12,586 nucleotides of DNA from Kiritimatiellales bacterium (lineage in GTDB: Bacteria > Verrucomicrobiota > Kiritimatiellia > Kiritimatiellales > Tichowtungiaceae): contig JAQUXG010000019.1 in the NCBI GenBank assembly GCA_028692515.1, positions 1 to 12,586 on the forward strand, in the 5' to 3' direction. Below are positions 416 through 11,771 of this stretch, piece after piece. The position numbers and the translations under genes are program-made. Each line of letters starts with the position of its first letter. Positions within the stretch are counted from its first letter, which is position 1. The notes under the pieces are model-generated. The model saw nothing but the letters and a program-made list of their open reading frames with translations, was not told where the DNA came from and searched no databases.

Positions 416-430
416 TTCCAATCTTTGGAA
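416..430. promoter_or_regulatory. 15-bp palindrome TTCCAA-N3-TTGGAA, upstream of rsmB
   Basis: TTCCAATCTTTGGAA is a perfect inverted repeat (6-bp arms, 3-bp centre) centred 32 bases before the likely rsmB ATG at 455. It belongs to the dispersed family described in the findings. Its place between the divergent repressor gene and rsmB fits an operator. It also argues against the longer rsmB reading frame beginning at 386, which would translate through it. Confidence 0.6.
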
Positions 431-454
431 CTTTCCGGTTCACTGCTCCTCCCT

Positions 455-1726
455 ATGAAGAAAAACAGCCGAGAAGTCGCCGCCGAAATCATTTACAACT
501 GGATCGAAAGTGAAAGCTTTCCGGATCGCCAGCTGGCTGAAGTGAAAGACGACCGTGCCTTTGTCACCGAAATGGTCTACGGCATTGTCCGCCGCAAGCT
601 GGCGCTCGAATATATCGAGCAGAAATTTATCCCGCGCCGTCCGGAAGACTTCATTGTTGCCGCACTGCACGTTGGGATCTATCAGCTCTGTTTCATGGAT
701 AACGTCGAAGAGTTCGCCGCCGTCCACGAGACCGTTGAGGCCATCAAAAATCGCCGTCATCCGGATGCCCTCCGTGCCGCTGGTATGGTGAATGCGGTTC
801 TGCGAAACGTGCAGGAAGAAAAAGCGGACATTTTAAAAAATCTCCAGAAGCAGTCCGACGAAATCCGCTTCTCTCACCCGGAATCGCTCATCAACCGCTG
901 GGTGAAGCAGTATGGCGAACGCGATACCCGCCAACTTTGTGAGTGGAACAATCAGCCGGCCGAAACGATTCTGCGCGTAGAGCCCGCCCGCATTGCGCCC
1001 GCCGACTTTATCAAAGCGCTCGAAGACGCCAAAATCTATGCCGAGCCGCATCCTTTCCAATGTTCGGAACTATTCCTGATTCTTCCGCGCGGCGTGGCTG
1101 TACCGAGTGTTCCCGGTTATAAAGAGGGCTGGTTCACCGTTCAGGACCCGGCGACCTCGGTTTCCGTCGAGCTGCTCGACCCGCGTCCCGGCGAATCCGT
1201 TCTCGACGCCTGCGCCGCGCCCGGCGGCAAGACCGCCATGATCGCCGGCATGATGGAAGGGACGGGCGAGCTGACCGCCATGGACGTTCACGACGACCGG
1301 CTCGACACGCTCGCCGACACCATCAAACGCACTGGATGGGACTTCGTCAAAATCCTCAAAGGCGACGCCGCCAAAGGCTTTCCGCAGAAAGAACAGCAGT
1401 TCGACGCCATCCTGCTTGATGTGCCTTGTTTAAATACCGGCGTATTGCGCCGCCGCGTCGATGCCCGCTGGCGCTTCACCCGCGACCGCATTGAAACGAT
1501 CAAAAAGACTCAGCGCCAGATTCTAAACGCCATGTCCAAACACGTTAAACCCGGCGGACGGATGGTCTACAGCACCTGCAGTCTCGAAGTGGAAGAAAAC
1601 GAAGAAATGGTCGGCCGCTGGGCGCGCGAGCATTCCGATTGGCGCCTCGTCAAAGCCAAACGCCTTTTTCCGCCGAAATCCGGAACCGACGGCGCCTATG
1701 CAGCCCTGCTCGTCCGGGCGGAGTAG
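455..1726 (+). CDS. rsmB: 16S rRNA (cytosine-967-C5)-methyltransferase RsmB
   Basis: A 423-residue protein that methylates C5 of a cytosine in 16S rRNA using S-adenosylmethionine during small-subunit assembly. The N-terminal ~130 residues are a NusB-like RNA-binding domain (SREVAAEIIYNWIE start; AAVHETVEA; GMVNAVLRN). The C-terminal half is the NOL1/NOP2/Sun catalytic domain: SAM motif I DACAAPGGKT at 251-260, motif IV DVPC at 322-325, and motif VI STCS with C375. The two catalytic cysteines C325 and C375 fall at the numbering I recall for E. coli RsmB (about 429 residues), which supports the ATG at 455. An in-frame ATG at 386 would add 23 unrelated residues and run through a palindrome. No good Shine-Dalgarno is seen. 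Motif IV reads PCLNTG where PCSNTG is more usual. One further palindrome copy lies inside the gene at 1055-1069. Confidence 0.95.
   Translation: MKKNSREVAAEIIYNWIESESFPDRQLAEVKDDRAFVTEMVYGIVRRKLALEYIEQKFIPRRPEDFIVAALHVGIYQLCFMDNVEEFAAVHETVEAIKNRRHPDALRAAGMVNAVLRNVQEEKADILKNLQKQSDEIRFSHPESLINRWVKQYGERDTRQLCEWNNQPAETILRVEPARIAPADFIKALEDAKIYAEPHPFQCSELFLILPRGVAVPSVPGYKEGWFTVQDPATSVSVELLDPRPGESVLDACAAPGGKTAMIAGMMEGTGELTAMDVHDDRLDTLADTIKRTGWDFVKILKGDAAKGFPQKEQQFDAILLDVPCLNTGVLRRRVDARWRFTRDRIETIKKTQRQILNAMSKHVKPGGRMVYSTCSLEVEENEEMVGRWAREHSDWRLVKAKRLFPPKSGTDGAYAALLVRAE
1055..1069. promoter_or_regulatory. Palindrome copy inside the rsmB coding region
   Basis: TTCCAATGTTCGGAA here is identical over all 15 bases to the intergenic copy at 10224-10238 and matches the window's palindrome family with one arm mismatch. 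It encodes part of the PFQCSEL segment of RsmB. Whether it is bound by the same regulator, is a coincidence, or reflects a dispersed element cannot be told from sequence alone. Confidence 0.4.
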
Positions 1727-1755
1727 TGGAGCTTGGGAGTGGTAGAGTGCCGAGT

Positions 1756-1801
1756 TTCCAATGATTGGAACAACAGCACTCCATTTTTCCAGACATTGGA
1801 A
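1756..1801 (+). promoter_or_regulatory. Palindrome doublet upstream of the methyltransferase gene
   Basis: Two family copies lie with centres 31 bp apart: TTCCAATGATTGGAA at 1756-1770 (perfect) and TTCCAGACATTGGAA at 1787-1801 (one mismatch), the second flanked by T and A runs (1784-1803). The proximal copy is centred 62 bp upstream of the TATACT -10 box at 1856. The distal copy reads TTCCAATG towards the gene and the proximal copy reads CATTGGAA, the same arrangement as the doublet before rlmD. Likely a regulator binding region. Confidence 0.6.
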
Positions 1802-1855
1802 AACGTCGCTCCAAAAATCCGGTAATCCATTATTCCCTTATTCCTTTTCTCCCCT

Positions 1856-1861
1856 TATACT
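1856..1861 (+). promoter_or_regulatory. -10 box TATACT, predicted leaderless start
   Basis: TATACT matches the sigma-70 -10 consensus at five of six positions and ends 8 bases before the ATG at 1870, so transcription would begin at or next to the start codon. No convincing -35 hexamer is present, which fits a promoter dependent on an activator. The box also rules out the longer reading frame from 1765, which would start upstream of the transcription start. Confidence 0.6.
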
Positions 1862-1869
1862 CCGCGGCC

Positions 1870-2772
1870 ATGAAAGCAATGGATGCCAATTTACGCTCTG
1901 AGGTGATCCGCTGGCAGGAAAAACTGTTCAAACGGTCTGTCCGCCGGCAGACGCGTCTGCGCAAGATTAAAGAACAGGCTGGGATCACGACAGGTCAGAA
2001 CTGCCTGGAGATCACGGCGGGCGACGGCATGATCAGCACCCGCCTGCGCGAAGGCGGCGGGCGCTGGAAAACGCTGGTGACCTCTTCTGCGGCCAAAGCC
2101 TCGCTCGAATGGTTTGTAGATGATCCGATCGATATTTTTCAAGCTCCGGCCATCAAAGAGGCGGACGGAACCTTTGATCTGGTGGTGATTGTGGATGCGC
2201 TGGAGCGCGTTCGTGATGATTACGCTTTCATTAAAGAATGTCACCGCGTGTTGAAGCCCGATGGGCGGCTGGTGATCACAGCGGCACGCAAAATGGTGTT
2301 TTGCCTGGGCGGTTGTCCGCTTCGCTTGATGATCGGGCTTTCATGGCGGGCTAAAGGCTTGGAGCGCAACGGCTACACAAGCGGCGAGTTCTTCGAAGTT
2401 TTAAAAGATGGCTTTGATGTGCCGGATACCGACACCTATTCGACCTGTTGCATTGAGGTTCCCGGACTGCTTTGCGAGGCGGCGGCCAATAAATTGGCCC
2501 GCGGCCTCTATAATATGCCCGGCGAAAAGACGGGAACCGAAGAATTTTATCACTACACAAAGCTAAACGCCTTTGCTGTAACGCTTTATCCAATAATGTG
2601 GTTGTTAGCTAAGCTGGAGGATAAGCTGTTATTCTTCATTCCAGGTCATAATATTATCGCCAAAACAAAACGGCGCGTCTGGCGCGCGCGCAAGCAGCCC
2701 ATCCTGATTGACGGCCGTTCCATTGCCGAAGCCGCCATTAATACCAAGATCGGCACAGCCGCACCGTTTTAA
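1870..2772 (+). CDS. Class I SAM-dependent methyltransferase, substrate unknown
   Basis: A 300-residue protein with a Methyltransf_11-like Rossmann fold. Motif I is CLEITAGDG at residues 45-53, an unusual variant of the LEIGCGxG loop. The strand and loop FDLVVIVDALERV begins at 102 and carries D109. The post-motif region HRVLKPDGRLVITAARK is typical of small-molecule, lipid and quinone methyltransferases. The C-terminal ~100 residues are less familiar: a hydrophobic stretch (TLYPIMWLLAKLEDKLLFFIP) could contact a membrane, followed by a basic tail. An in-frame ATG at 1765 would lengthen it by 35 residues but lies upstream of the -10 box and inside the palindrome doublet, so 1870 is preferred; ATG 1879 is an alternative. 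It stands between rsmB and rpmH with its own promoter, so neighbours do not reveal the substrate. Confidence 0.85.
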   Translation: MKAMDANLRSEVIRWQEKLFKRSVRRQTRLRKIKEQAGITTGQNCLEITAGDGMISTRLREGGGRWKTLVTSSAAKASLEWFVDDPIDIFQAPAIKEADGTFDLVVIVDALERVRDDYAFIKECHRVLKPDGRLVITAARKMVFCLGGCPLRLMIGLSWRAKGLERNGYTSGEFFEVLKDGFDVPDTDTYSTCCIEVPGLLCEAAANKLARGLYNMPGEKTGTEEFYHYTKLNAFAVTLYPIMWLLAKLEDKLLFFIPGHNIIAKTKRRVWRARKQPILIDGRSIAEAAINTKIGTAAPF

Positions 2773-2774
2773 GA

Positions 2775-2880
2775 GTGGAATGATGGAGGATTGGAATGTT
2801 GGAACGCCTTATTGTTGCGTTAATCAGGCTTTTCGGTATTCCACCACTCCAGCAATCCGCTATTCCAATAATCCCCTCCC
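2775..2880. repeat. TGGAAT-word repeat pair in inverted orientation
   Basis: Immediately after the methyltransferase stop, 2775-2803 carries purine-rich words (GTGGAATGATGGA, ATTGGAATGTTGGA). At 2837-2880 similar words occur on the opposite strand (ATTCCACCACTCC, CTATTCCAATAATCC). The reverse complement of the second block resembles the first and also resembles 6551-6574. This looks like a degenerate dispersed intergenic repeat. No gene is visible in 2773-2952. Confidence 0.45.
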
Positions 2881-2888
2881 ATTGAGAG

Positions 2889-2917
2889 TTGACAGTGGCG
2901 GGCGAACTTGGCAGGGT
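2889..2917 (+). promoter_or_regulatory. Probable rpmH operon promoter
   Basis: A perfect -35 hexamer TTGACA (2889-2894) is followed after 17 bp by CAGGGT (2912-2917), which keeps only the A at position 2 and the T at position 6 of the -10 consensus. The expected transcript would start near 2925 and carry the Shine-Dalgarno TGGAG at 2940-2944, 8 bases before the rpmH ATG. The -10 is weak, so confidence is moderate. Confidence 0.45.
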
Positions 2918-2952
2918 TTGCGCTCTTTTTGAATTTCAGTGGAGATTGAACA

Positions 2953-3096
2953 ATGAAACGTACATGGCAGCCTTCGAAAATTAAACGCGCCCGCAAACAC
3001 GGTTTCCGTCATCGCATGGAAACTGCCGACGGACGTAAAATCCTGTCAAACCGTCGCCGTAAAGGCCGCAAACGTTTGACCGTTTGTGATGCATAA
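2953..3096 (+). CDS. rpmH: 50S ribosomal protein L34 (bL34)
   Basis: A 47-residue, strongly basic protein and a structural component of the large ribosomal subunit bound to 23S rRNA. The sequence starts [19 protein letters not shown] and continues with the family hallmark [21 protein letters not shown]. Length is in the normal range (about 44-50). A Shine-Dalgarno TGGAG lies 8 bases upstream. It is the first gene of the classic rpmH-rnpA-yidD-yidC cluster and directly precedes rnpA. The C-terminal CDA extension after GRKRLTV is slightly unusual. In many bacteria dnaA and the origin lie next to rpmH; no DnaA boxes are visible in the 180 bases upstream, so the origin is not shown to be here. 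Confidence 0.97.
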
Positions 3097-3121
3097 GACA
3101 CTCTCACCGGAGGAGTACCCG

Positions 3122-3478
3122 GTGGAATCAAAAACGCTTTCCAAAAAACAGCGCCTGATTCAAGCCTCCCTCTTCGGGGAGGCTTTTGCGCAGAAAAAGA
3201 ACTTTGTCGGGCGCTTTATGGTGCTCTGGCTTCGCACCGGACAGGATGCCGCGATGCGGCTCGGTGTGGTGACCAGTAAAAAAGTGAGCAACCGCGCGGT
3301 TGACCGCAATCTCGCCCGCCGCCGGATTCGCGAAATTTTCCGTCAGCACCGCGCGGAGCTTTCCGGTCCGTTCGATCTGGTGATTATCGGCCGCCGCAAT
3401 CTTCTTTTTGCCACCCATGAAGAGGTGGAGGCGGAGTTCCTGAAACTGGTGGAGAAAGCGGGGCTGCGGATTCAATGA
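3122..3478 (+). CDS. rnpA: Ribonuclease P protein component
   Basis: A 118-residue basic protein that binds the RNase P RNA and helps recognise pre-tRNA 5' leaders. The family signature is clear: LSKKQRL near the start, the strand [25 protein letters not shown] and the conserved RNR-type helix [12 protein letters not shown] (residues about 57-74), then [10 protein letters not shown]. The start is taken as GTG 3122 because an excellent Shine-Dalgarno GGAGGAG (3109-3115) lies at the right distance. In-frame GTG 3086 and ATG 3089 would give 130 or 129 residues and overlap the end of rpmH, but have no Shine-Dalgarno and add residues not expected for the family. The stop overlaps the yidD start as ATGA, indicating translational coupling. 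Confidence 0.95.
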
Positions 3479-3750
3479 AGCGCCTGCTCATCATTCTGGT
3501 GCGGATTTACCAAAAAACCCTTTCCCGGATGAAGCCCGCTTGTTGCCGGTTTTATCCGACCTGTTCCGATTATACGGTTGAAGCCATCCAGAAGCATGGC
3601 ATACTTCACGGCCTTTGGTTGAGTTTCCGGCGTATCTGCCGGTGTCATCCGTGGAACCCCGGTGGGTACGACCCCGTACCGGAAGTCAGAAATCAGGGGG
3701 CAGGGGGCCGCGGACGAAAAAACAAAACCGGGAATCAGAAACCGGATTGA
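3475..3750 (+). CDS. yidD: Membrane protein insertion efficiency factor YidD
   Basis: A 91-residue protein thought to sit at the inner face of the cytoplasmic membrane and assist YidC-dependent insertion. The N-terminal amphipathic helix ([19 protein letters not shown]) and the cysteine-rich family core [19 protein letters not shown] and [18 protein letters not shown] are all present. It overlaps rnpA by 4 bases. The family core ends at about residue 69. The remaining ~22 residues are a low-complexity, Gly/Arg/Lys/Asn-rich tail whose DNA contains repeated ATCAG-type words, so the tail probably arose from repeat DNA running into the stop. Confidence 0.94.
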
Positions 3751-3794
3751 ACGGGTTTAATGGCTTGAACGAGGCGCGCAGCGCCGATTGAACG
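3747..3794 (+). repeat. Three TTGAACG direct repeats before yidC
   Basis: TTGAACG occurs at 3747-3753, 3765-3771 and 3788-3794, with steps of 18 and 23 bases, in the 57-base gap between yidD and yidC. A short GC-rich dyad (GGCGCGCAGCGCC) lies between the second and third copies. It could be a processing or regulatory site in the operon mRNA or a remnant of repeat DNA. Confidence 0.4.
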
Positions 3795-3807
3795 AAAGAT
3801 ACACGTT

Positions 3808-5544
3808 ATGAAGAAAAACGATTTTATTATTGTAGGCATTCTGGTCGCACTGATGTTCGCCTGGATGAATTTCTATCCGGTGCTGGAAAAGAAATATTTC
3901 CCGAAGCCCGTCGTTGCTGAAGAGCAGATTGCCCCGGTAACCGCCGAAACGCCGGTTGTTGTGGCCCCTGTTGAAAAAGACGCCGCAATTGTCGAGGCCG
4001 TTACGGCGAAAGTTCCGGAAATTGTTCTGCCTTCCGCCCCGGAACAGCAGATGAAGCTTTCCAACGATGATGTCGAACTGACCGTTTCCTCCTATGGCGG
4101 TGCCGTGGTCTCTGCCGTCCTCAAAAACTATCCCGAGACCAACTCGAAAGAGAGCGGCCCGTTCGTTCTGGAGTTCACGAATGCTCCCGCGCTGCGCTAT
4201 ACCGGCCTGCCGGTTGTTGCCGGAGTTCTTGAACGGACGGATGGCGGCCTGCGCTACACCGCCGCATTGGGCGATGGACGCTTTCTTGAGCGTACGCTCA
4301 AGCTCGAAGGCGAATATCTGCTGACCATCGAAGACGCATTCGTCAACAGCAGCACTGTTCCGTGGGCTCTGCCGGAACTGCGCCTGATGACCGGCCCGAT
4401 GAGCAATCCTGCCAGCACCACCTCCATGAAGGGCATTTCCACCATCGGAGTCGATTCCTTTTCCGCCGCCGACGGGGTTCACCACTGGGGTAAAGATCTG
4501 TACAAGCTGTTCAAACAGATTCCGGTCGGAACGGATCAGTTCACTTCGACTCCCTCCATGCTCGCGCCGGTTGCGCCGACTACGCCGCAGTCGGCGGACT
4601 GGATTGCCGCCAAAAACAAATTTTTTGTGCAGGTTCTCACGCCCGCAGGCACCGCCGACGGATTTGACCTCACCGTTCGTCGTGAAGGCGAAGGCAAAAA
4701 ATCGGCTCCGGTCGAAGTTTCCGCCGCGTTGCAGTTTGATTCCAAGCTGGTCGGCGCCAACGAAACCCTTACCCGCAACGCCCGCCTTTATGTCGGCCCC
4801 AAAGATTATTCCTTCCTGAAAACGCAGGGCATGGATCAGGTTGAAGTGATGGAGTTCAAGAGCACCGGCTTCTTTAAGTTTATGAACCCGATCATGTACC
4901 CGATTAAGACGGGTCTGCTTTGGGGCTTGAATGCGCTGGAAAAAATGGTGCGCAACTACGGCGTTGCGATCATGTTGCTCACCATCATCGTCCGCATCAT
5001 TTTCTGGCCGATCACTCACAAGGGCACAGAGAGCATGCGCCGCATGCAGGCGCTTCAGCCGCAGCTCAAAGAAATCCGCGAAAAATTCAAAGACAATCCG
5101 CAGCGCATGCAACAGGAGACCATGCAGTTCTACAAAGAGAACAAGGTCAACCCCATGGGCGGCTGCCTGCCGATGTTTGTGCAGATTCCGGTCTTTATCG
5201 CGCTCTATACCGTTCTGCGCAGCGCCATTGAACTGCGTTTTTCTAAATTCCTATGGATCAGCGACCTGTCTGAGCCGGAAAATCTTTTTGCCGGAATGAT
5301 CCCGATCGTCGGTTCGCTCAACATCCTGCCGTTGCTGATGTCCGCCACCATGATTCTTCAGCAGAAACTAACGCCGTCCGCCGGTGATCCTCAGCAGCAG
5401 AAAATGATGGCCGTGATGATGCCGATCATGATGCTCTTCTTCTTCTACAACATGCCGTCCGGCCTCGTTCTCTATTGGACCACCAGTAATTTGATCATGA
5501 TCCTCCAGATGATGATCAAAAAACAGAAACCGGCGGTTACGTAA
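3808..5544 (+). CDS. yidC: Membrane protein insertase YidC (Oxa1/YidC/Alb3 family)
   Basis: A 578-residue insertase that folds and inserts inner-membrane proteins alone or with SecYEG. It has the Gram-negative layout. The first transmembrane helix is at about 6-23 (FIIVGILVALMFAWMNF), then an Ala/Val/Pro/Glu-rich linker (about 30-75). A large periplasmic beta domain runs to about 360. The C-terminal Oxa1 core follows: a helix with the conserved hydrophilic-groove arginine R396 (TIIVRIIFWPITHKG), the cytoplasmic coiled loop (MQALQPQLKEIREKF), the GGCLPMFVQIPVFIALY helix, and the last helices ending FFFYNMPSGLVLYWTTSNL. E. coli YidC is about 548 residues, so the length is normal. The start has no clear Shine-Dalgarno, but only the ATG at 3808 gives a proper first helix. 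Confidence 0.97.
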   Translation: MKKNDFIIVGILVALMFAWMNFYPVLEKKYFPKPVVAEEQIAPVTAETPVVVAPVEKDAAIVEAVTAKVPEIVLPSAPEQQMKLSNDDVELTVSSYGGAVVSAVLKNYPETNSKESGPFVLEFTNAPALRYTGLPVVAGVLERTDGGLRYTAALGDGRFLERTLKLEGEYLLTIEDAFVNSSTVPWALPELRLMTGPMSNPASTTSMKGISTIGVDSFSAADGVHHWGKDLYKLFKQIPVGTDQFTSTPSMLAPVAPTTPQSADWIAAKNKFFVQVLTPAGTADGFDLTVRREGEGKKSAPVEVSAALQFDSKLVGANETLTRNARLYVGPKDYSFLKTQGMDQVEVMEFKSTGFFKFMNPIMYPIKTGLLWGLNALEKMVRNYGVAIMLLTIIVRIIFWPITHKGTESMRRMQALQPQLKEIREKFKDNPQRMQQETMQFYKENKVNPMGGCLPMFVQIPVFIALYTVLRSAIELRFSKFLWISDLSEPENLFAGMIPIVGSLNILPLLMSATMILQQKLTPSAGDPQQQKMMAVMMPIMMLFFFYNMPSGLVLYWTTSNLIMILQMMIKKQKPAVT

Positions 5545-5560
5545 GTTTTCAGGAGGAAAT

Positions 5561-6004
5561 ATGGCCAACGTAATGAAAGTTCTGAAAGACGAAATTTCGC
5601 GGATTGCCCGCAGTGAAATCAACGCGGCGCTCAAGCCGATCAAATCGGTCAACGCCAGCCAGCGCAAATATATCGCTGAGCTGCGCCGCCGTATTGAAGA
5701 TCTCGAAAAAGAAAAGAAGCAACTCGTCAAAACCATTTCCAAGGCGGTTCCGGTTCAGGAAGAAACTTCTGAAGAAACGCGCGGCTGGATTTCCGGTGCC
5801 GGAGTCCGTGCGATGCGCAAGCGTCTCAAGCTGTCGCAGAAAGCCTTCGCCGAACTGGCCGGCGTCAGCCTGCCGACCGTGGCTTTGTGGGAATCCGCCA
5901 AGAACAGCGGCAAACTCAACATCCGCCGCAAAGAAGTTTTTGCCCGCCTGCAGGAAATTAAAGGCATGGGCATTCGCGATCTGGCTGTTGCCGAAGAAAA
6001 ATAG
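5561..6004 (+). CDS. Coiled-coil plus Xre/YiaG-like helix-turn-helix protein
   Basis: A 147-residue protein. Residues 1-65 are highly charged and predicted helical, with a coiled coil around 30-62 (RKYIAELRRRIEDLEKEKKQ), probably for dimerisation. Residues about 78-115 form an Xre/Cro-type DNA-binding motif (GVRAMRKRLKLSQKAFAELAGVSLPTVALWE), in which SLPTVALWE is the recognition-helix end. A strong Shine-Dalgarno AGGAGG (5551-5556) precedes the ATG, and the gene begins 17 bases after yidC, so it probably belongs to the rpmH operon transcript. The position after yidC is often taken by jag/khpB and mnmE; here neither is present. I recognise the architecture as a recurrent small regulator family but know no target or function. 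Confidence 0.85.
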   Translation: MANVMKVLKDEISRIARSEINAALKPIKSVNASQRKYIAELRRRIEDLEKEKKQLVKTISKAVPVQEETSEETRGWISGAGVRAMRKRLKLSQKAFAELAGVSLPTVALWESAKNSGKLNIRRKEVFARLQEIKGMGIRDLAVAEEK

Positions 6005-6016
6005 GCATTACACAGG

Positions 6017-6045
6017 TTTCCGAAGTTTGGAAACAGCGGTACAAT
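6017..6045 (+). promoter_or_regulatory. Promoter of the lipoprotein gene with overlapping palindrome
   Basis: TACAAT at 6040-6045 is a good -10 box. The palindrome family copy TTCCGAAGTTTGGAA (6018-6032, one arm mismatch) covers the -35 position, where TTTCCG is a poor -35 hexamer at 17 bp. The transcript would start near 6052 and include the Shine-Dalgarno. A factor bound here would either replace the -35 contact or block polymerase. Confidence 0.5.
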
Positions 6046-6069
6046 TCATCGCATCAAAAGGAGGGTTCC

Positions 6070-6522
6070 ATGAGATCACTTCGTTTAGTTTTATTCCTGA
6101 TTGCAACGGCATTGATCGCCGGGTGCGCATCCAGCCCGTCCGGCGATGTCTATTCCCGCAATCAGACCATGCAGGCTCAGACCATTCAAATGGGTACGGT
6201 TGAGTCGGTTCGTAATGTGCAGATCGAAGGCACCAAATCCGGTGTCGGTGCGGTCAGCGGCGGAATTGCCGGCGGTGTACTCGGCAGTACGATCGGCAGC
6301 GGCAAAGGCTCAACTCTTGCGGCGCTTGGCGGCGCAGCACTTGGCGCGGTCGGCGGTTCGATGGCTGAAGAAAAGCTGACCAAAAAAGCGGGGCTTGAAA
6401 TCACGGTTCAGCTCGACGGCGGTTCACTGATTGCGGTTGTGCAGGAAGCTGATGTGATGTTTTCTGTCGGCGAGCGCGTCCGGGTTCTCTCGGGAGGCGG
6501 CACGACCCGCATCGTAAAGTAG
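6070..6522 (+). CDS. Glycine-zipper (SlyB/PCP-like) lipoprotein
   Basis: A 150-residue predicted lipoprotein. Residues 1-18 are a signal peptide (MRSLRLVLFLIATALIAG) ending in the lipobox LIAGC, with C19 the lipidated cysteine. A segment MGTVESVRNVQIEG precedes a glycine-zipper hairpin (about 57-97; repeated GxxxG in GAVSGGIAGGVLG and LGGAALGAVGG), followed by a small beta-rich C-terminus (LEITVQLDGGSLIAVVQ...VGERVRVLSGGGTTRIVK). This order is typical of the SlyB/Pcp glycine-zipper 2TM family of outer-membrane-associated lipoproteins linked to envelope stability. The Shine-Dalgarno AGGAGGG (6059-6065) fixes the start. It has its own promoter and is not clearly in an operon. The exact role is not known. 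Confidence 0.88.
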   Translation: MRSLRLVLFLIATALIAGCASSPSGDVYSRNQTMQAQTIQMGTVESVRNVQIEGTKSGVGAVSGGIAGGVLGSTIGSGKGSTLAALGGAALGAVGGSMAEEKLTKKAGLEITVQLDGGSLIAVVQEADVMFSVGERVRVLSGGGTTRIVK

Positions 6523-6550
6523 ACTCCAGCCCACTGGCATCCAATAGGGC

Positions 6551-6574
6551 GTGGAATAATGGAAAATTGCTGGA
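6551..6574. repeat. Copy of the TGGAAT-word intergenic repeat
   Basis: GTGGAATAATGGAAAATTGC followed by TGGA resembles the block at 2775-2803 (GTGGAATGATGGAGGATTGG...). It lies 28 bases after the lipoprotein gene. No gene or clear terminator is visible in the remaining 6523-6721 interval. Confidence 0.4.
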
Positions 6575-6721
6575 CAGGTTTTCCGGAGGAGGCCTGTGGC
6601 CGGTTACAACACACTCGCCGTTTTACTTTGAAAAGACCGCAAGGTTACAGGCGAAAGAAGCTCCATTTGTTGAGCTATAAAACTTTGGTGATATTGTAAT
6701 TACGGTCGATGCTGAAGCTTG

Positions 6722-6727
6722 TACAAT
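6722..6727 (+). promoter_or_regulatory. -10 box TACAAT, predicted leaderless start
   Basis: TACAAT ends 6 bases before ATG 6734 and no Shine-Dalgarno is present, so a leaderless mRNA is predicted. No clear -35 hexamer is seen. The box overlaps the codons after an alternative TTG start at 6719, which it makes unlikely. Confidence 0.45.
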
Positions 6728-6733
6728 ATCCTC

Positions 6734-7606
6734 ATGAATTTGAGTAAACAGACTGATGATCTCTTCGACAGCATGGTGCCAGTCGTCTTGCTTTCTACAG
6801 GGGTAGTTTTTTGCGGCGTTATCTGGCTCATTCATATTTTCTGGATGGCGTGTATAGGTACGCCCCCCGCTAATTATTATCTTTCCATGCCCTATGCCGG
6901 ATTGAGCTATGTCTCGCTCTGCGTACTGTCATTTTCCGGGTTTATTGCTGTTGGCTTAATCCTTCTTCTATGTGGTAAGCGGAAACTGTTCTCGTTGGCA
7001 TTGATCGTTTCCTGCCTATCTATCGGCACCAACACTCTGGTGATGAAAGCCATTCTGCGGAAGGGGCACCTGATGTCTATGCAAGGATTGGTGCAGGGGC
7101 TATTGGAGTTCGATTCAACCGACCCGAAGGATCCATATTATAAGCATCCATCAATGGTCCTGTTTAATCATGAGGTGCTTACAAAGGATATCAGACGGTG
7201 GAATGAGGTGGAGGCTGAGAAATTCGAGTCGGCCATTGAGCTGGTGTCCATCGCGGGAGACTGGCTGTTAGCAACCGAAGAGCATACCGGGATCTGCCGA
7301 TTCGACTGTGGCGATGATGACTGGGTTTGGGATATTGACTGTTATTTGGAAGTGAATGGCGAGGTGTGGGGAAAGAAAGGGTATTTGCCGGTTAAAATTT
7401 ATAAAGACGACAGTCTGTATAAAATACTTTTGTTGGGTGATGGTTGGCATGTTGCAGACTACTTTTATGATTCCGGGGACACAAATCTGATTTCGAGTCT
7501 CGAAGACGGAGTGTATCTAGAAATGGATCCGGACAAGAAATCCTTTTTCATGTATCCGGATGAAACTAGGACAGGGTTATCCCTTGGCCCATTTGTCAGA
7601 AAATAA
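6734..7606 (+). CDS. Unrecognised membrane protein with C-terminal soluble domain
   Basis: A 290-residue protein I do not recognise. It opens with a short hydrophilic stretch and three predicted transmembrane helices at about 15-38, 57-80 and 85-107. A soluble acidic domain follows (about 115-290) with several Trp and Asp residues (GDDDWVWDIDCYLEVNGEVWG) and a clearly beta-rich character. Cysteines at about 190-205 (ICRFDCGDDD) might pair if the domain is extracytoplasmic. Start ATG 6734 is preferred over TTG 6719 because a -10 box lies between them. Codon use is more AT-rich than in the neighbours (TTA, AGA, TTG, ATA are common), which suggests relaxed selection or more recent acquisition. 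It stands alone between the lipoprotein gene and a gene-poor gap. Confidence 0.7.
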   Translation: MNLSKQTDDLFDSMVPVVLLSTGVVFCGVIWLIHIFWMACIGTPPANYYLSMPYAGLSYVSLCVLSFSGFIAVGLILLLCGKRKLFSLALIVSCLSIGTNTLVMKAILRKGHLMSMQGLVQGLLEFDSTDPKDPYYKHPSMVLFNHEVLTKDIRRWNEVEAEKFESAIELVSIAGDWLLATEEHTGICRFDCGDDDWVWDIDCYLEVNGEVWGKKGYLPVKIYKDDSLYKILLLGDGWHVADYFYDSGDTNLISSLEDGVYLEMDPDKKSFFMYPDETRTGLSLGPFVRK

Positions 7607-8086
7607 TCTGACAGCGTCGGGTTCGCCCTTGAATAATGATATGCTGCCTGTGTCTATAGTGAGTAAGTTACAAGGCTGAGTGACGGGAGGAGAAGGCCGT
7701 CAACGGGCGTGGTGGAAAGTTCAATTTTCCAATCCCTGAAAATATTCTGGTCTCGTTGTTCCAATGTTTGGGAAAACGGCTTTTCACGGAACTACGTTTT
7801 TTCATTGAAAACAGAAAGCAGTTCTTGAAGGAACGAACGCATGAAAATAGGCGATATTCTACCACCCGTTCGTAAGCTCACTGGAGAACGCAACCGAGTA
7901 AACAGCCGAGATTGAGATTCCTCCTTTATGAAAACTCATCCAAAAACTCGGAGCCCCTCCAGCGTTAGCGGGTGGTGAAAAATATCCGCCGGTTGATCGT
8001 CAATTCCGGCAAGCCCTGCTATCTAGGTTGGAACGAAGAAGCCGTTCTGAAAACGCACTTCCGAAAACAACCGGGAAAACGGGTTT
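7607..8086. other. Gene-poor interval with degenerate palindrome doublet
   Basis: About 480 bases without a convincing gene. It contains two degenerate members of the palindrome family: TTCCAATCCCTGAAA at 7727-7741 and the 16-base TTCCAATGTTTGGGAA at 7759-7774. Their centres are about 32 bp apart, similar to the 31-bp doublet upstream of 1870. Only very short open frames follow, such as ATG 7841-7915 (24 codons, MKIGDILPPVRK...) and ATG 7928 (about 16 codons), both without recognisable features. It may be the decayed 5' region of a lost gene. I see no tRNA, transposase or terminator here. Confidence 0.4.
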
Positions 8087-9994
8087 TTAGGCGCCGAGGA
8101 CGCAGGCAGAGTGCGCCGGAACCAGTACGGCAAAGTCGCCGGCGGCGGGCGGAATGGCTGCCGGATCTGTGGATAGAACCTGTTCCCACTTTCCGGCGGG
8201 AAGTTCGAATGAGAGATCAACCGCTTCGTTATTGAACAGAAGGAGCAGGAGGTCTTTCCCCTTAATGTACATGCCGAGCGCGCGGTCGTTCTGCCAGTTA
8301 ACGGCGAGACTTTCCGGCCCGATCCATTCAACGTCTTTGCCGGTATAGAATTTTCCGGAACAGAGCGCGGGATGGGTCTTTCGCAGGGCGATCAGTTTTT
8401 TTGTAAAATCAAACAGCTCGCTGTTTTTTTCAAGAAGAGCCCAGTCGATCCATGAAATTTCATTGTCCTGACAGTAGGCATTGTTGTTGCCCGACTGCGT
8501 CCGGCCGAATTCATCGCCGGCGGTCAGCATCGGTACGCCGCGTGACAGAAAGAGGGTGGTGAGCAGATTTTTCTGCTGCTTGAGCCGCCGCGCGCAAATC
8601 ACCGGATCAGCAACCGGTTCTTCATAACCGAAGTTCGTGCTGAAATTATGGTTGTCGCCATCGCGGTTCTGTTCACCGTTCGCCTCATTATGTTTGCGCT
8701 CATAAGTCACCAGGTCGGCCAGCGTGAAGCCGTCGTGTGAGGTGATGAAGTTAATGCTTTTCAGCGGCGAGCCGCCATTGTGCTGGTAGAGATCGGCACT
8801 GCCCGCCAGCCGTGTGGCCAGCGGGCCGACCGGATCTTCTCCGTTCCAGAAGCGGCGCGCATCGTCGCGGAATCGTCCGTTCCAGTCCGAGAACCGTTTG
8901 CCCGGGAAACTGCCGACCTGATAGCCGCCGAGCGCATCCCAGGCTTCTGCGATCAGTTTGACCTTTTTGAGCGCGGGCTCGGTTTCGATGGCTGCAATGA
9001 CTGGCGGTTTTTCAAGCAGCTCGCCGTCTTCTCCGCGGCAGAGCACGGTGGCCAGATCAAAGCGGAAGCCGTCTACGTGCATTTCCTGCGCCCAGTATTT
9101 CAGCGAGTCAACGATCAGCTGTTGCGCGACCGGATGGTTGCAGTTGAAGGTGTTGCCGCACCCGCTCCAGTTCGCGTAGGAACCGTCGTGGTGGATGATG
9201 TAATAAGCCGCTTCATCAAGTCCGCGAAAACTGTAGATCTGCCCGTTAAACGGCCCTTCGGCGGTGTGGTTGTAGACGACATCCAGAATCACTTCGATTC
9301 CGGCGTTATGCAACGCCTTGACCAGCGTTTTAAACTCGGCAACCGCCGCGCCGGGCTCGCGCGAAGCGGCATAGCGGCTCATCGGTGCGAAAAAGGCGAG
9401 GGTACTGTAGCCCCAGAGGTTGAGAAGATTCTTACGCCCGTGGCCTTCGAGGAAAAACTCCATCTCGTTGAATTCAAATAGCGGCAGAAATTCAACTGCC
9501 GTGATGCCGAGCGACTGGAGGTGCGGAATTTTTTTGATGAAGTCGAGATAGGTTCCGCCCCCTTCACCGCGAGTGAAGCCGCGCAGGTGCGCCTCATAAA
9601 TCACGGTTTTTTCGAGCGGGGTGTGCGGACGCTTTTCCCCGCGCCAGTCAAACAAATCATCCGGCACAATGCATTTCGGGAAATGCTTCCCGGTGTGGAT
9701 GTGCCGTCCGGCGTCCATGCCGGTGGAGTCGCCCCACGCGCGCGGGACGTGAACCGCGCGGGCATAGGGATCGAGAAGCCACTGCTCCGGAACGGCATCC
9801 GTGCGGTAGAGATAAAGCGCGCCGGGCTTCAGGCCGGCAACGGTTGTGTGCCAGAGCGGCCCGCCGCTCATTTCGATTTCGCGGGACGGCATTTCGGCAT
9901 CGGCGGAATCAAACAAGAGCAGCCAGAGTCGGTTGGCGCTGCTGTGAACAACAAATTCAGCGTCTTCTTTTCGGATGTGCAGGCCGGGTTTCAT
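8087..9994 (-). CDS. glgX: Glycogen debranching enzyme GlgX / isoamylase-type glycoside hydrolase (GH13)
   Basis: A 635-residue enzyme that hydrolyses alpha-1,6 branch links in glycogen or limit dextrins. The N-terminal ~100 residues are a CBM48-type domain (PGLHIRKEDAEFVVHSSAN...WLLLFD). The catalytic barrel opens with VIYEAHLRGFTRG. GH13 region I is DVVYNH at 238-243. Region II GFRFD contains the nucleophile D313, region III AEAWD the acid/base E350, and region IV SHDGF the D421; all are intact. The NNAYCQDNEISWIDW segment is typical of GlgX/TreX enzymes. The C-terminus is a beta domain. E. coli GlgX is about 657 residues. Start ATG 9994 is chosen over TTG 10012 because a promoter lies between. 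No other glycogen gene is nearby, so it is a stand-alone unit, and GlgX versus broader isoamylase specificity is not settled. Confidence 0.93.
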   Translation of the reverse strand: MKPGLHIRKEDAEFVVHSSANRLWLLLFDSADAEMPSREIEMSGGPLWHTTVAGLKPGALYLYRTDAVPEQWLLDPYARAVHVPRAWGDSTGMDAGRHIHTGKHFPKCIVPDDLFDWRGEKRPHTPLEKTVIYEAHLRGFTRGEGGGTYLDFIKKIPHLQSLGITAVEFLPLFEFNEMEFFLEGHGRKNLLNLWGYSTLAFFAPMSRYAASREPGAAVAEFKTLVKALHNAGIEVILDVVYNHTAEGPFNGQIYSFRGLDEAAYYIIHHDGSYANWSGCGNTFNCNHPVAQQLIVDSLKYWAQEMHVDGFRFDLATVLCRGEDGELLEKPPVIAAIETEPALKKVKLIAEAWDALGGYQVGSFPGKRFSDWNGRFRDDARRFWNGEDPVGPLATRLAGSADLYQHNGGSPLKSINFITSHDGFTLADLVTYERKHNEANGEQNRDGDNHNFSTNFGYEEPVADPVICARRLKQQKNLLTTLFLSRGVPMLTAGDEFGRTQSGNNNAYCQDNEISWIDWALLEKNSELFDFTKKLIALRKTHPALCSGKFYTGKDVEWIGPESLAVNWQNDRALGMYIKGKDLLLLLFNNEAVDLSFELPAGKWEQVLSTDPAAIPPAAGDFAVLVPAHSACVLGA

Positions 9995-10001
9995 GGCCGA
10001 G

Positions 10002-10029
10002 AGTGTACGCAAGCGCTGGCGGAATTCAA
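10002..10029 (-). promoter_or_regulatory. glgX promoter, predicted leaderless start
   Basis: On the minus strand TTGAAT (10029-10024) is followed after 16 bp by TACACT (10007-10002), matching four of six bases each to the sigma-70 -35 and -10 boxes. The -10 ends 7 bases before ATG 9994, and there is no Shine-Dalgarno, so a leaderless mRNA is predicted. Confidence 0.55.
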
Positions 10030-10064
10030 TGCTTCCCTACGCTCTGCCCGCCAAGGATTGATTT

Positions 10065-10079
10065 TTCCAATGCTTGGAA
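10065..10079 (-). promoter_or_regulatory. Palindrome upstream of glgX
   Basis: TTCCAATGCTTGGAA is a perfect 6+3+6 inverted repeat, centred 65 bp upstream of the glgX -10 box. Read towards glgX it is TTCCAAGCATTGGAA, the same orientation as the gene-proximal copies before 1870 and before rlmD. Confidence 0.6.
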
Positions 10080-10086
10080 GAATCGC

Positions 10087-10220
10087 CCACTAATCACACG
10101 AATAGGCACGAATGGTTTCCACCCGTTGCCGCTTTCTTTGGTCGTTGTCCCTCTTCGCGGGGCCTCTCTCGTTGCACCCGGGTGGAACCCATCCGCGTTT
10201 ATTCGCGTCATTCGCGGTTA
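10087..10220. repeat. MITE-like inverted-repeat element
   Basis: A ~130-base block between glgX and rlmD has imperfect inverted ends. The left end carries repeated CGAAT words (CACTAATCACACGAATAGGCACGAAT) and the right end carries the complement-like ATTCGCGTCATTCGCGGTTA. An inner inverted pair is clear: GGTTTCCACCCG at 10114-10125 against CGGGTGGAACC at 10179-10189, with one base missing. No transposase or credible gene is encoded. CGAAT-type repeats of this kind are common in intergenic DNA of environmental bacteria, to my recollection. Confidence 0.55.
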
Positions 10221-10223
10221 ACT

Positions 10224-10279
10224 TTCCAATGTTCGGAACCGGCGAGGCTGGATTTTTAGATTTTTTCTAGACATTGGAA
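10224..10279 (+). promoter_or_regulatory. Palindrome doublet upstream of rlmD
   Basis: TTCCAATGTTCGGAA (10224-10238, one mismatch) and TTCTAGACATTGGAA (10265-10279, two mismatches) have centres 41 bp apart. The proximal copy is centred 57 bp before the -10 box. As in the doublet before 1870, the distal copy reads TTCCAATG and the proximal copy reads AGACATTGGAA towards the gene. Confidence 0.55.
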
Positions 10280-10343: not shown

Positions 10344-11771
10344 ATGTATAAAAAAGGTCAGATCGTCGAGACGGAGATTTTTGATACGGCGGATAAAAAC
10401 CGCTGCGTCGGAAAAATGGACGACGGAATCCGCGTGTTTGTGGAAGGTATTGCCGCCGTCGGCGATACGGTTCGCGCGCAGGTGTACAAAATCAAAAAGC
10501 GCTATCTCGTCGCCAATCTGACCGAAGTGGTGAAGTTTTCCGACCGCCGGATTGAGCCGCGTTGCAAATATTTCGGCGTCTGCGGCGGTTGCAAATGGCA
10601 GCATCTGGATTATTCCGAACAGCTGCGCATCAAGCGCAAACAGGTCGTCGACGCCCTCGAACATCTCGGTAACTTTGAAAATCCGGAAGTCGGCGAATGT
10701 ATTGCGGCGGAAGAGACTTTCGGCTACCGCAACAAAATCGACATGGATTTCACTGACCGCCGCTACCTGACTGCCGACGAAATGAATATTCCGGAAGCCG
10801 AACTGAGCAAGCCGCTCGATTTTGCGCTCGGGTTCCACGCGCCGGGTTGCTTCGCCAAAGCGATTGATATCGACCATTGCGATCTCGCCTCAGAAGAAAT
10901 GAATCTAGCGGTTGAAACCGTCCGCCGTTTCTGCCGCGACCGCAAGTTGCCGATTTATTCATCGTTTTCGCACGAAGGCTTTCTGCGCAACCTGGTCGTC
11001 CGGCGCGGGGAGCGCACCGGCGAGCTGATGGTGAATTTGATCACGTTGACGCATGATGCGGCACGGATGCAGGAACTCTGCACCGCATTACAGTCCGCCT
11101 TCGGCGAAAAACTGACCACCTTCATCAACGCCACCACCGACCGTAAAAATATGGTGGCATTTGGCGATCAGGAATATGTGATGTGCGGCGAGGGGAGTAT
11201 CTCCGACCGGCTCGGCGAATACACCTACCGTATTTCGCCCAACTCCTTCTTCCAGACCAACACCGTGCAGGCCGAAAAGCTTTATAACGAGATTCTGACC
11301 GCCGCGCAGTTCAAAGGCGAAGAGACCGTCTATGACCTGTTCTGCGGAACCGGCTCCATCGCGCTTTTCGCCGCCAAACACTGCGGAAAAGTCCTCGGCA
11401 TTGAACTGGTCGAAGCCGCCGTTGCCGATGCACAGAAAAACGCCGAAGAGCACGGCGCGAAAAACTGTTCGTTCCGTCAGATGGATCTGATGCACTTTGG
11501 TAAAATCCGTGCCGAGTTGGGGACGTTCGGCCTGCCGGATATTGTCATCACGGATCCGCCGCGCGCAGGCATGCACCCCAAGGCGGTCGAAATGCTGCGC
11601 GAGCTGGCGCCGCCCGTCATCATTTATGTCAGTTGCAATCCGGCCTCGCTGGCGCGTGACGGACAGCTTCTCTGCGAAGGCGGACTCTACAAGCTCATCA
11701 GCGCGCAACCGGTCGACCTTTTCCCCCAGACCAACCACGTCGAGAGCGTCGCCCGCTTTGAGCGCGGGTGA
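10344..11771 (+). CDS. rlmD: 23S rRNA (uracil-C5)-methyltransferase, RlmD/RumA family
   Basis: A 475-residue enzyme of the TrmA/RumA family that makes 5-methyluridine in 23S rRNA (U1939 in E. coli for RlmD) using SAM. Residues 1-60 are a TRAM RNA-binding domain (GQIVETEIFDTADKNRCVGK). Four cysteines, C74, C80 and C83 (RCKYFGVCGGCKW) and C179 (DIDHCDL), match the 4Fe-4S cluster ligands of RumA. The catalytic half has SAM motif DLFCGTGS (331-338), DPPRAG from D404, the nucleophile C431 in YVSCNPASLARD and the probable general base E467 in NHVESVARFE. E. coli RlmD is 433 residues, so this protein is slightly longer. RlmD is favoured over the RlmC and TrmA relatives because TRAM and the cluster are both present, but the exact target uridine cannot be fixed from sequence. 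Likely monocistronic. Confidence 0.92.
   Translation: MYKKGQIVETEIFDTADKNRCVGKMDDGIRVFVEGIAAVGDTVRAQVYKIKKRYLVANLTEVVKFSDRRIEPRCKYFGVCGGCKWQHLDYSEQLRIKRKQVVDALEHLGNFENPEVGECIAAEETFGYRNKIDMDFTDRRYLTADEMNIPEAELSKPLDFALGFHAPGCFAKAIDIDHCDLASEEMNLAVETVRRFCRDRKLPIYSSFSHEGFLRNLVVRRGERTGELMVNLITLTHDAARMQELCTALQSAFGEKLTTFINATTDRKNMVAFGDQEYVMCGEGSISDRLGEYTYRISPNSFFQTNTVQAEKLYNEILTAAQFKGEETVYDLFCGTGSIALFAAKHCGKVLGIELVEAAVADAQKNAEEHGAKNCSFRQMDLMHFGKIRAELGTFGLPDIVITDPPRAGMHPKAVEMLRELAPPVIIYVSCNPASLARDGQLLCEGGLYKLISAQPVDLFPQTNHVESVARFERG

Follow-up and report, generated by a model that had tools for sequence, protein, structure and literature searches.

What is the 15-bp palindrome that recurs ten times in a 12,586-nucleotide stretch of DNA from a Kiritimatiellales bacterium (GenBank assembly GCA_028692515.1, contig JAQUXG010000019.1; hereafter the window, meaning the whole stretch), and what might read it? 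The window makes up one contig of a draft genome of 1.81 Mb from the class Kiritimatiellia, 86% complete and here called G000. A preliminary description took the palindromes for probable sites of a global regulator upstream of genes, with a nucleoid protein or a mobile small repeat as further options, and our analysis supports that interpretation in part. The idea that the palindromes are sites of a putative DNA-binding protein is strengthened by their helical phasing, while the idea of a regulator upstream of genes is weakened by their placement. We favor a model, held with evenly balanced confidence, in which the palindromes are sites of a dimeric, cooperative protein that acts architecturally at the scale of the chromosome.

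Results

All ten copies first reported were confirmed, starting at positions 416, 1055, 1756, 1787, 6018, 7727, 7759, 10065, 10224 and 10265. Counted over the two 6-base arms, without the centre, they carry 0, 1, 0, 1, 1, 2, 1, 0, 1 and 2 mismatches in this order, with perfect arms at 416, 1756 and 10065. The division into eight good and two degenerate copies is not borne out for 7759, which has one mismatch and is as good as several of the eight. Their density is indeed beyond chance, with 19 strand-hits at up to three mismatches to the word as first given, whereas 200 dinucleotide shuffles gave 1.52 on average and 7 at most. The centre ATGn of that first consensus was not borne out, the arms being fixed and the centre free save for a middle base C or G. 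In a 320-kb sample of G000, 110 of 112 perfect copies have C or G in the middle, and the word is better given as TTCCAA-nSn-TTGGAA, with T-rich bases before it and A-rich bases after it.

The motif search of the whole genome that the preliminary description had called for revealed a repeat far more abundant than the window suggests: G000 contains 609 exact copies of TTCCAAnnnTTGGAA, with none of the reversed-pattern control and about 0.1 copies expected from base composition. We surveyed an even draw of 288 genomes across the phylum, 97 from the class and 191 others. At least 50 copies are present in 27 of the 97 class members, with up to 1339, and 0 of the 191 genomes outside the class have more than 5. 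All six sampled genomes of the window's genus carry the word. Elsewhere in the class it occurs in dialects. Six genomes with 0 or 1 exact copies (G047, G068, G095, G225, G242 and G264) hold 97 to 252 copies of the looser word TTTCCAnnnnnTGGAAA, and G233, from the same family as dialect carriers and formerly scored at 0, has only 19. The arms read CAY...RTG inside in G095 and G068 (family f10), from five copies in the case of G068, and TTCCATTGARTGGAA in G242, as read in one array of four copies. In G012, 15 of 20 perfect copies have the centre GCC. The dialect of G314 is TTCCAATSATTGGAA; this genome has 3017 exact copies with a C/G centre and none of the reversed control, and the centre is TCA in 95 of 100 copies among the matches listed. 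We also noted a further form, TTCCAGnnnCTGGAA, with 152 copies in G035, 88 in G159 and 24–25 in G003 and G130.

Neighboring copies lie in helical phase. The 320-kb sample of G000 contains 67 neighbor distances below 130 bp, and their Rayleigh R at 10.5 bp is 0.84, a value reached by 0 of 20,000 uniform draws. Distances of 22 bp (n = 10), 30–32 bp (n = 31) and 40–43 bp (n = 12) predominate, the others being 53, 63, 63, 72, 73, 81, 84, 85, 85, 95, 95, 105, 115 and 122 bp, so that nearly every distance falls near a whole number of turns; the phase of the 26 distances above 33 bp alone was likewise matched by 0 of 20,000 uniform draws. For 246 pairs up to 450 bp apart in three genomes of the window's genus, the best period is 10.45 bp, approximately that of B-DNA. 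The phase at 10.5 bp fades slowly with distance (R 0.88, 0.77, 0.54, 0.51 and 0.44), the pairs in these long-distance counts not being independent of one another. Phase is found in G000 both for pairs with both copies in coding sequence (n = 25, R 0.88), 18 of whose distances are not divisible by 3, and for pairs with both copies intergenic (n = 23, R 0.81). It recurs in coding pairs of G081 (n = 12, R 0.88), in intergenic pairs of G012 (n = 19, R 0.96) and G314 (n = 15, R 0.99), and in G095; spacings in the dialect genomes G095, G068 and G242 are 31, 30, 22 and 21 bp.

The basic unit is often a pair three turns apart (30–33 bp), sometimes two or four turns, and arrays reach seven copies. The spacers themselves differ from locus to locus. 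Those of G314 share a composition, GC-rich in the middle and AT-rich beside the dyads, that would suit bent DNA, and one array in G090 has a repeated spacer, indicating that tandem duplication also occurs. As a separate observation, spacers of 40–43 bp often hold a short GC-rich stem-loop (for example CCGGC-nnn-GCCGG) abutting a palindrome, as at 10239–10251 of the window and in the four-turn spacers of L032, L048, L058, L065 and L071. Thirteen four-turn spacers have a mean fold of −5.0 kcal/mol against −3.0 in shuffles, and 31 three-turn spacers show no such excess; these stem-loops are possibly a second dyad family.

The word is abundant, patchily distributed and biased toward intergenic DNA, which together could suggest a mobile repeat of the repetitive extragenic palindrome (REP)/REPIN, miniature inverted-repeat transposable element or Rickettsia-palindrome type that inserts its copies. 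REPs are small intergenic palindromes, REPINs are paired REP elements, and the palindrome pairs described here resemble them. A few low-copy genomes have arrays near genes that by eye resemble PIN-domain genes, which suggests transfer with flanking DNA. REPs within genes and REP-rich Verrucomicrobia are known, according to passages of PMC3733652. A BLAST comparison also found gaps within the flanks in 27 of 86 coding site-relative pairs, of which 30 share the site and 29 differ by substitution, and in 8 of 17 intergenic pairs, of which 8 share the site and 1 differs by substitution.

The copies within rsmB, for which we aligned nine genomes, speak against insertion. The coding alignment is free of gaps in eight rows, and the ninth row stops at a contig end. 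Two coding positions hold the word with at most one mismatch in three and five of the nine genomes, and the window copy at 1055, found at this stringency in three of nine, was gained or lost by substitution. Thus the word arises there by substitution, in this one gene, and the copies are not inserted units. Because the nine-genome alignment is gap-free, the rsmB gaps in the noisier BLAST comparison must be compensating alignment gaps, a nature established for the rsmB gaps of that comparison only. Judged from these alignments, insertion of a mobile repeat is largely refuted for rsmB. Spacing, moreover, stays fixed while spacers are unrelated, and the word lacks the GTAG or CGTC with which most REPs end, GTAG REPs being thought to be moved by REP-associated tyrosine transposases (RAYTs; passages of PMC3733652). 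RAYT-type Y1_Tnp genes (PF01797) occur in 54 of 62 genomes without relation to copy number (183 copies but no such gene in G151, 21 genes but 3 copies in G015); this is a weak test because REP and RAYT occurrence themselves show no obvious correlation in passages of the same source. The suggestion of a mobile small repeat is therefore not supported, and we consider it very unlikely.

Several sites are nevertheless kept in relatives, as would be expected of promoter operators for a global transcription factor, the leading idea of the preliminary description. The copy 5′ of rsmB (416) has at most one arm mismatch in eight of nine aligned genomes, with a variable centre, and the copy at 6018, before a lipoprotein-like gene, aligns in register with a perfect copy at L022:14357. 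The gap matching 1756/1787 in L022 holds a degenerate pair at 9337/9368, two mismatches each and likewise 31 bp apart; the convergent gap where the glgX-like gene ends is also occupied in L022 (14868/14897) and L025 (13424/13466), with different letters and spacing; and the much shorter glgX/rlmD gap of L022 keeps a 2-mismatch copy at 16876. That description held that a random distribution relative to promoters, or absence from orthologous upstream regions, would count against a regulator; several window sites are indeed retained at orthologous places, but the copies are nearly independent of promoters.

This independence emerges from gene calls made with a crude purpose-built caller, which placed some starts wrongly; most of the copies scored as "coding" in G095 and G314 fall within the first tenth of a called gene and may be intergenic. 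Counting copies with at most one mismatch, coding and intergenic densities per kb are 0.33 and 1.32 in G000, 0.26 and 0.42 in G081, 0.07 and 4.92 in G012 and 0.13 and 3.92 in G314. The intergenic excess, 4 times in G000 and about 70 times in G012, would suit operators, but of the copies sampled, 89 of the 168 in G000 and 95 of the 118 in G081 fall in called coding sequence. Divergent, tandem and convergent gaps of at least 30 bp, moreover, are occupied about alike: 13/42, 22/103 and 9/24 in G000; 8/15, 12/22 and 6/7 in G314; 2/8, 8/32 and 2/6 in G012; and 5/39, 10/120 and 3/29 in G081. Promoter-bearing gaps are thus not clearly preferred in these four genomes, where convergent occupancy is similar to divergent, and sites are not concentrated in them. 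In the window, Pfam assignments confirm that the copies neighbor genes of differing function, none common to them, as first observed. Operators at promoters are an improbable explanation.

Occupied convergent gaps, frequent in G314 (6/7), could instead point to RNA hairpins at transcript ends, serving as terminators or stability elements. Copies in tandem gaps lie closer to the preceding stop than to the next start in G000 (medians 43 and 84 bp), G012 (83 and 92 bp) and G314 (57 and 91 bp), with the opposite lean in G081 (59 and 48 bp), and single copies fold at −8.0 to −13.4 kcal/mol. Such single-strand folds are not negligible, the lowest being that of 10055–10090 on the plus strand. The stem is AT-rich without a T-run of its own, however, unlike the GC-rich stem and T-run of an intrinsic terminator, and hairpins do not predict a DNA-helix period that reaches hundreds of base pairs. 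The earlier judgment that the stem is too weak for a terminator is reasonable, since a stem scan of the window lists none built from a palindrome's two arms; one weak stem in that list, at 408–423 on the minus strand, takes in half of copy 416, and another, GC-rich and with a T-run (10239–10251), abuts copy 10224. We find it hard to credit a role as RNA hairpins.

Along the chromosome, arrays are more even than chance in two of five genomes examined. The coefficient of variation (CV) of array spacing is 0.39 in G012 against 0.89 for random intergenic gaps, and 0.51 against 0.77 in G314; 0 of 3000 draws were as even by CV under each of two null models, and counts per 5 kb give P values of 0.002–0.013. 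Among the matches listed, exact copies only, the mean gap is 5434 bp in G012 (CV 0.52) and 3367 bp in G314 (CV 0.45), and the shortest gap between clusters is 832 and 1082 bp, respectively; these values use 92 of 100 listed copies in G012 and 96 of 100 in G314, leaving out contigs with one or two clusters (C10, C12 and C14 of G012, C3 and C4 of G314). No evident trend with GC skew was seen along the single-contig 3.88-Mb G081, where 20 samples of 20 kb held 0–14 copies each at up to one mismatch.

Even spacing in G012 and G314 would also suit a self-DNA or uptake-signal mark, in which a putative receptor, serving DNA uptake or the distinction of self from foreign DNA, would prefer fragments with phased pairs, and uptake with recombination would spread the word and homogenize it by molecular drive. 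According to passages of PMC3630211 and PMC7811141, the DNA uptake sequences (DUS) of Neisseriaceae and uptake signal sequences (USS) of Pasteurellaceae have very many exact copies, arise by point mutation (as stated for Haemophilus USS in PMC7811141), occur in coding and intergenic DNA, form dialects that share a fixed core (PMC3630211, for the DUS of Neisseriaceae) and are relatively evenly spaced. The Kiritimatiellia word is alike in the over-representation of one exact word (609 against 0 reversed copies in G000, 3017 against 0 in G314), with very high uniformity in G314, in its point-mutation origin in rsmB, one gene, and in its coding and intergenic copies and dialects. Exact pairs at 30–33 bp, furthermore, are present in only three contigs of the viral collection searched. 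It is unlike DUS and USS in being a dyad, in its phased arrays and in its preferred three-turn pair, features not described for DUS or USS in those passages. Even spacing, moreover, is absent in the window's genus. ComEC (PF03772) is present in 60 of 62 genomes tested, a point for uptake in itself, but is equally common with and without the word and thus uninformative, and G118 has 271 copies and no ComEC match. We regard an uptake mark as possible though doubtful. A second, longer ComEC-type (PF03772) frame of about 940–1370 amino acids was seen in most tested members of families f3, f7, f8, f10, f16 and f27, and in no tested member of other class families.

In the search for a binding protein, no binder was found among the candidates tested, namely Lrp, TetR and the XRE protein of the window. 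Lrp/AsnC (PF01037) is present in 48 of 50 genomes whatever the copy number, zero-copy genomes included, and its presumed recognition helix varies freely within the window's genus while the word is constant, an indirect argument drawn from the 35 of 36 fetched regions that gave a protein. The XRE protein (5561–6004) occurs in 28 of 62 genomes, unrelated to copy number (G032, with 595 copies, lacks a match, and G101, with 0 copies, has 7), and TetR_N (PF00440) has no match in the carriers G000, G151, G162, G337, G256 and others. Array neighbors in low-copy genomes, inspected by eye, include no common gene.

Discussion

Our results are consistent with a model whereby the palindromes are the cognate sites of one putative dimeric, sequence-specific DNA-binding protein with the predicted target TTTTCCAA-nSn-TTGGAAAA and local dialects in other genera. 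In this model, the putative protein assembles cooperatively on neighboring sites along one face of the helix and would serve as an architectural element of the nucleoid type, clamping, bending or bridging DNA every few kilobases, rather than as a promoter switch. A dimer that binds cooperatively, side by side, would leave dyads whose half-sites are about one turn apart, neighbors in phase and spacers that are unrelated. That the copies are almost independent of promoters, also occur in coding sequence and can be evenly spaced points to a role at chromosome scale. Phased, chromosome-wide sites outside promoters, as found here, are also what nucleoid-associated or architectural sites would provide. 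From these computed features, we infer protein binding, its dimeric and cooperative nature and the architectural role. The architectural reading explains dyad and phase better than an uptake mark does; for uniformity, dialects, even spacing and patchy loss, the uptake mark is an explanation at least as good as architecture.

Several observations weigh against the architectural model. The 122-bp distance in G000 and one 48-bp pair in the dialect genome G047 are out of phase. The many coding copies (89/168 in G000) must cost amino-acid changes, and a copy number ranging from 62 to 609 within one genus is odd for an essential architectural protein. Spacing is random in the window's genus (CV 1.04 in G000, 0.97 in G081 and 1.05 in G032), and contig 1 of G162, among the matches listed, looks uneven (60, 94, 137 and 138 kb). 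The uniformity of the word in G314 exceeds expectation for sites kept singly by weak selection and fits a homogenizing drive better. Finally, the failure of all tested candidates as binder counts here too. A bolder version of the architectural model incorporates such a drive: as a chromosome ruler, one putative Kiritimatiellia protein family would clamp phased palindromes every few kilobases, word and protein would have co-evolved dialects, and drive would keep thousands of copies identical. We put forward this version tentatively, as somewhat less than evenly probable.

Parts of this picture have precedents, among them DUS, HIP1 and the sites of nucleoid proteins. Sites of the Lrp/AsnC, Fis and NrdR type are dyads of about 15 bp whose centres lie on one helix face some 31 or 41 bp from each other, and in dyad size and same-face spacing the Kiritimatiellia word is like them; those sites are known from few loci per protein or have degenerate words, and Lrp and the word do not co-vary in the genomes studied here. 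The palindromes matS, SBS, parS and the Noc sites are read by dedicated chromosome-organizing proteins and have tens of copies of a conserved word; the Kiritimatiellia word, unlike them, occurs in hundreds to thousands of copies and has dialects. The highly iterated palindrome HIP1 of cyanobacteria is likewise an abundant palindrome replaced by alternates in some lineages, but is an 8-base, GC-rich word tied to methyltransferases, and phased arrays are not mentioned in the abstract of PMC4390886, which describes it.

A literature search found no description of the word. We know of no precedent in which a dyad, helical phase, even spacing and dialects come together, and the chromosome ruler, if true, would to our knowledge be the first described uptake- or architecture-type word to join dyad symmetry, helical phase and even spacing. 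Many members of the Kiritimatiellia, a class whose isolates include Tichowtungia and Pontiella, would then use a chromosome-wide code, none of which we found in print. Because of the helical period, sequence by itself can indicate a protein that probably assembles on one face of the DNA. The dialects provide a natural experiment for finding this protein and for learning how thousands of sites change specificity together; the word is also a new system for testing molecular drive against selection.

Copies and neighboring genes in the window

As first reported, all copies but one are intergenic: nine of the ten lie between called genes, and 1055..1069, with one arm mismatch, lies within the rsmB coding sequence. 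None of the sites is assigned a strand. The perfect-arm palindrome TTCCAATCTTTGGAA (416..430) lies in the gap between an ArsR-type gene and rsmB, 24 bases 5′ of the probable rsmB start codon at 455. The gap between rsmB and a methyltransferase gene contains a perfect copy (1756..1770) and, 31 bp or three helical turns further on, its partner with one arm mismatch (1787..1801). A copy with one arm mismatch (6018..6032) precedes the glycine-zipper lipoprotein-like gene (6070–6522). The convergent gap between an open reading frame on the plus strand (6719–7606) and the end of the glgX-like gene on the minus strand holds the pair 7727..7741, with two arm mismatches, and 7759..7773, with one, 32 bp apart. 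Upstream of the glgX-like gene (minus strand, 8087–10012) is a perfect copy (10065..10079), and the divergent glgX/rlmD gap also contains a copy with one arm mismatch (10224..10238), followed 41 bp or four turns later by a copy with two (10265..10279) upstream of the rlmD-like gene (10344–11771). By Pfam, the window encodes an ArsR-type regulator, an RsmB/F methyltransferase, another methyltransferase, YidC, an XRE-type protein, a glycine-zipper protein, an alpha-amylase-family protein (glgX-like) and a TRAM/uracil-5-methyltransferase (rlmD-like). The closest relatives of rsmB are in metagenome-assembled genomes named Pontiellaceae, Kiritimatiellaeota or Verrucomicrobia. The XRE-type protein, encoded behind yidC, is small and combines an N-terminal region with a coiled-coil look (by eye) and a helix-turn-helix.

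Another dispersed repeat, of the CATCCGCGTTTATTCGCGTCATTCGCGG type, occupies 10183–10224 of the window between the glgX and rlmD palindromes, with matches in 4 of 41 other G000 contigs searched. At about 5390–5441 of L021, a GC-rich hairpin of about 33 bp separates TTTTTCC and AACCTTTGGAAA halves, and the palindrome is unbroken in L025:4332–4352, as if a second small repeat had been inserted into, or lost from, a palindrome site. The three viral contigs with phased pairs are among L228, L229 (IMGVR_UViG_3300035698_006241), L230 and L231; one of them has a large terminase gene and three clusters, and phages of this group may carry the word of their host.

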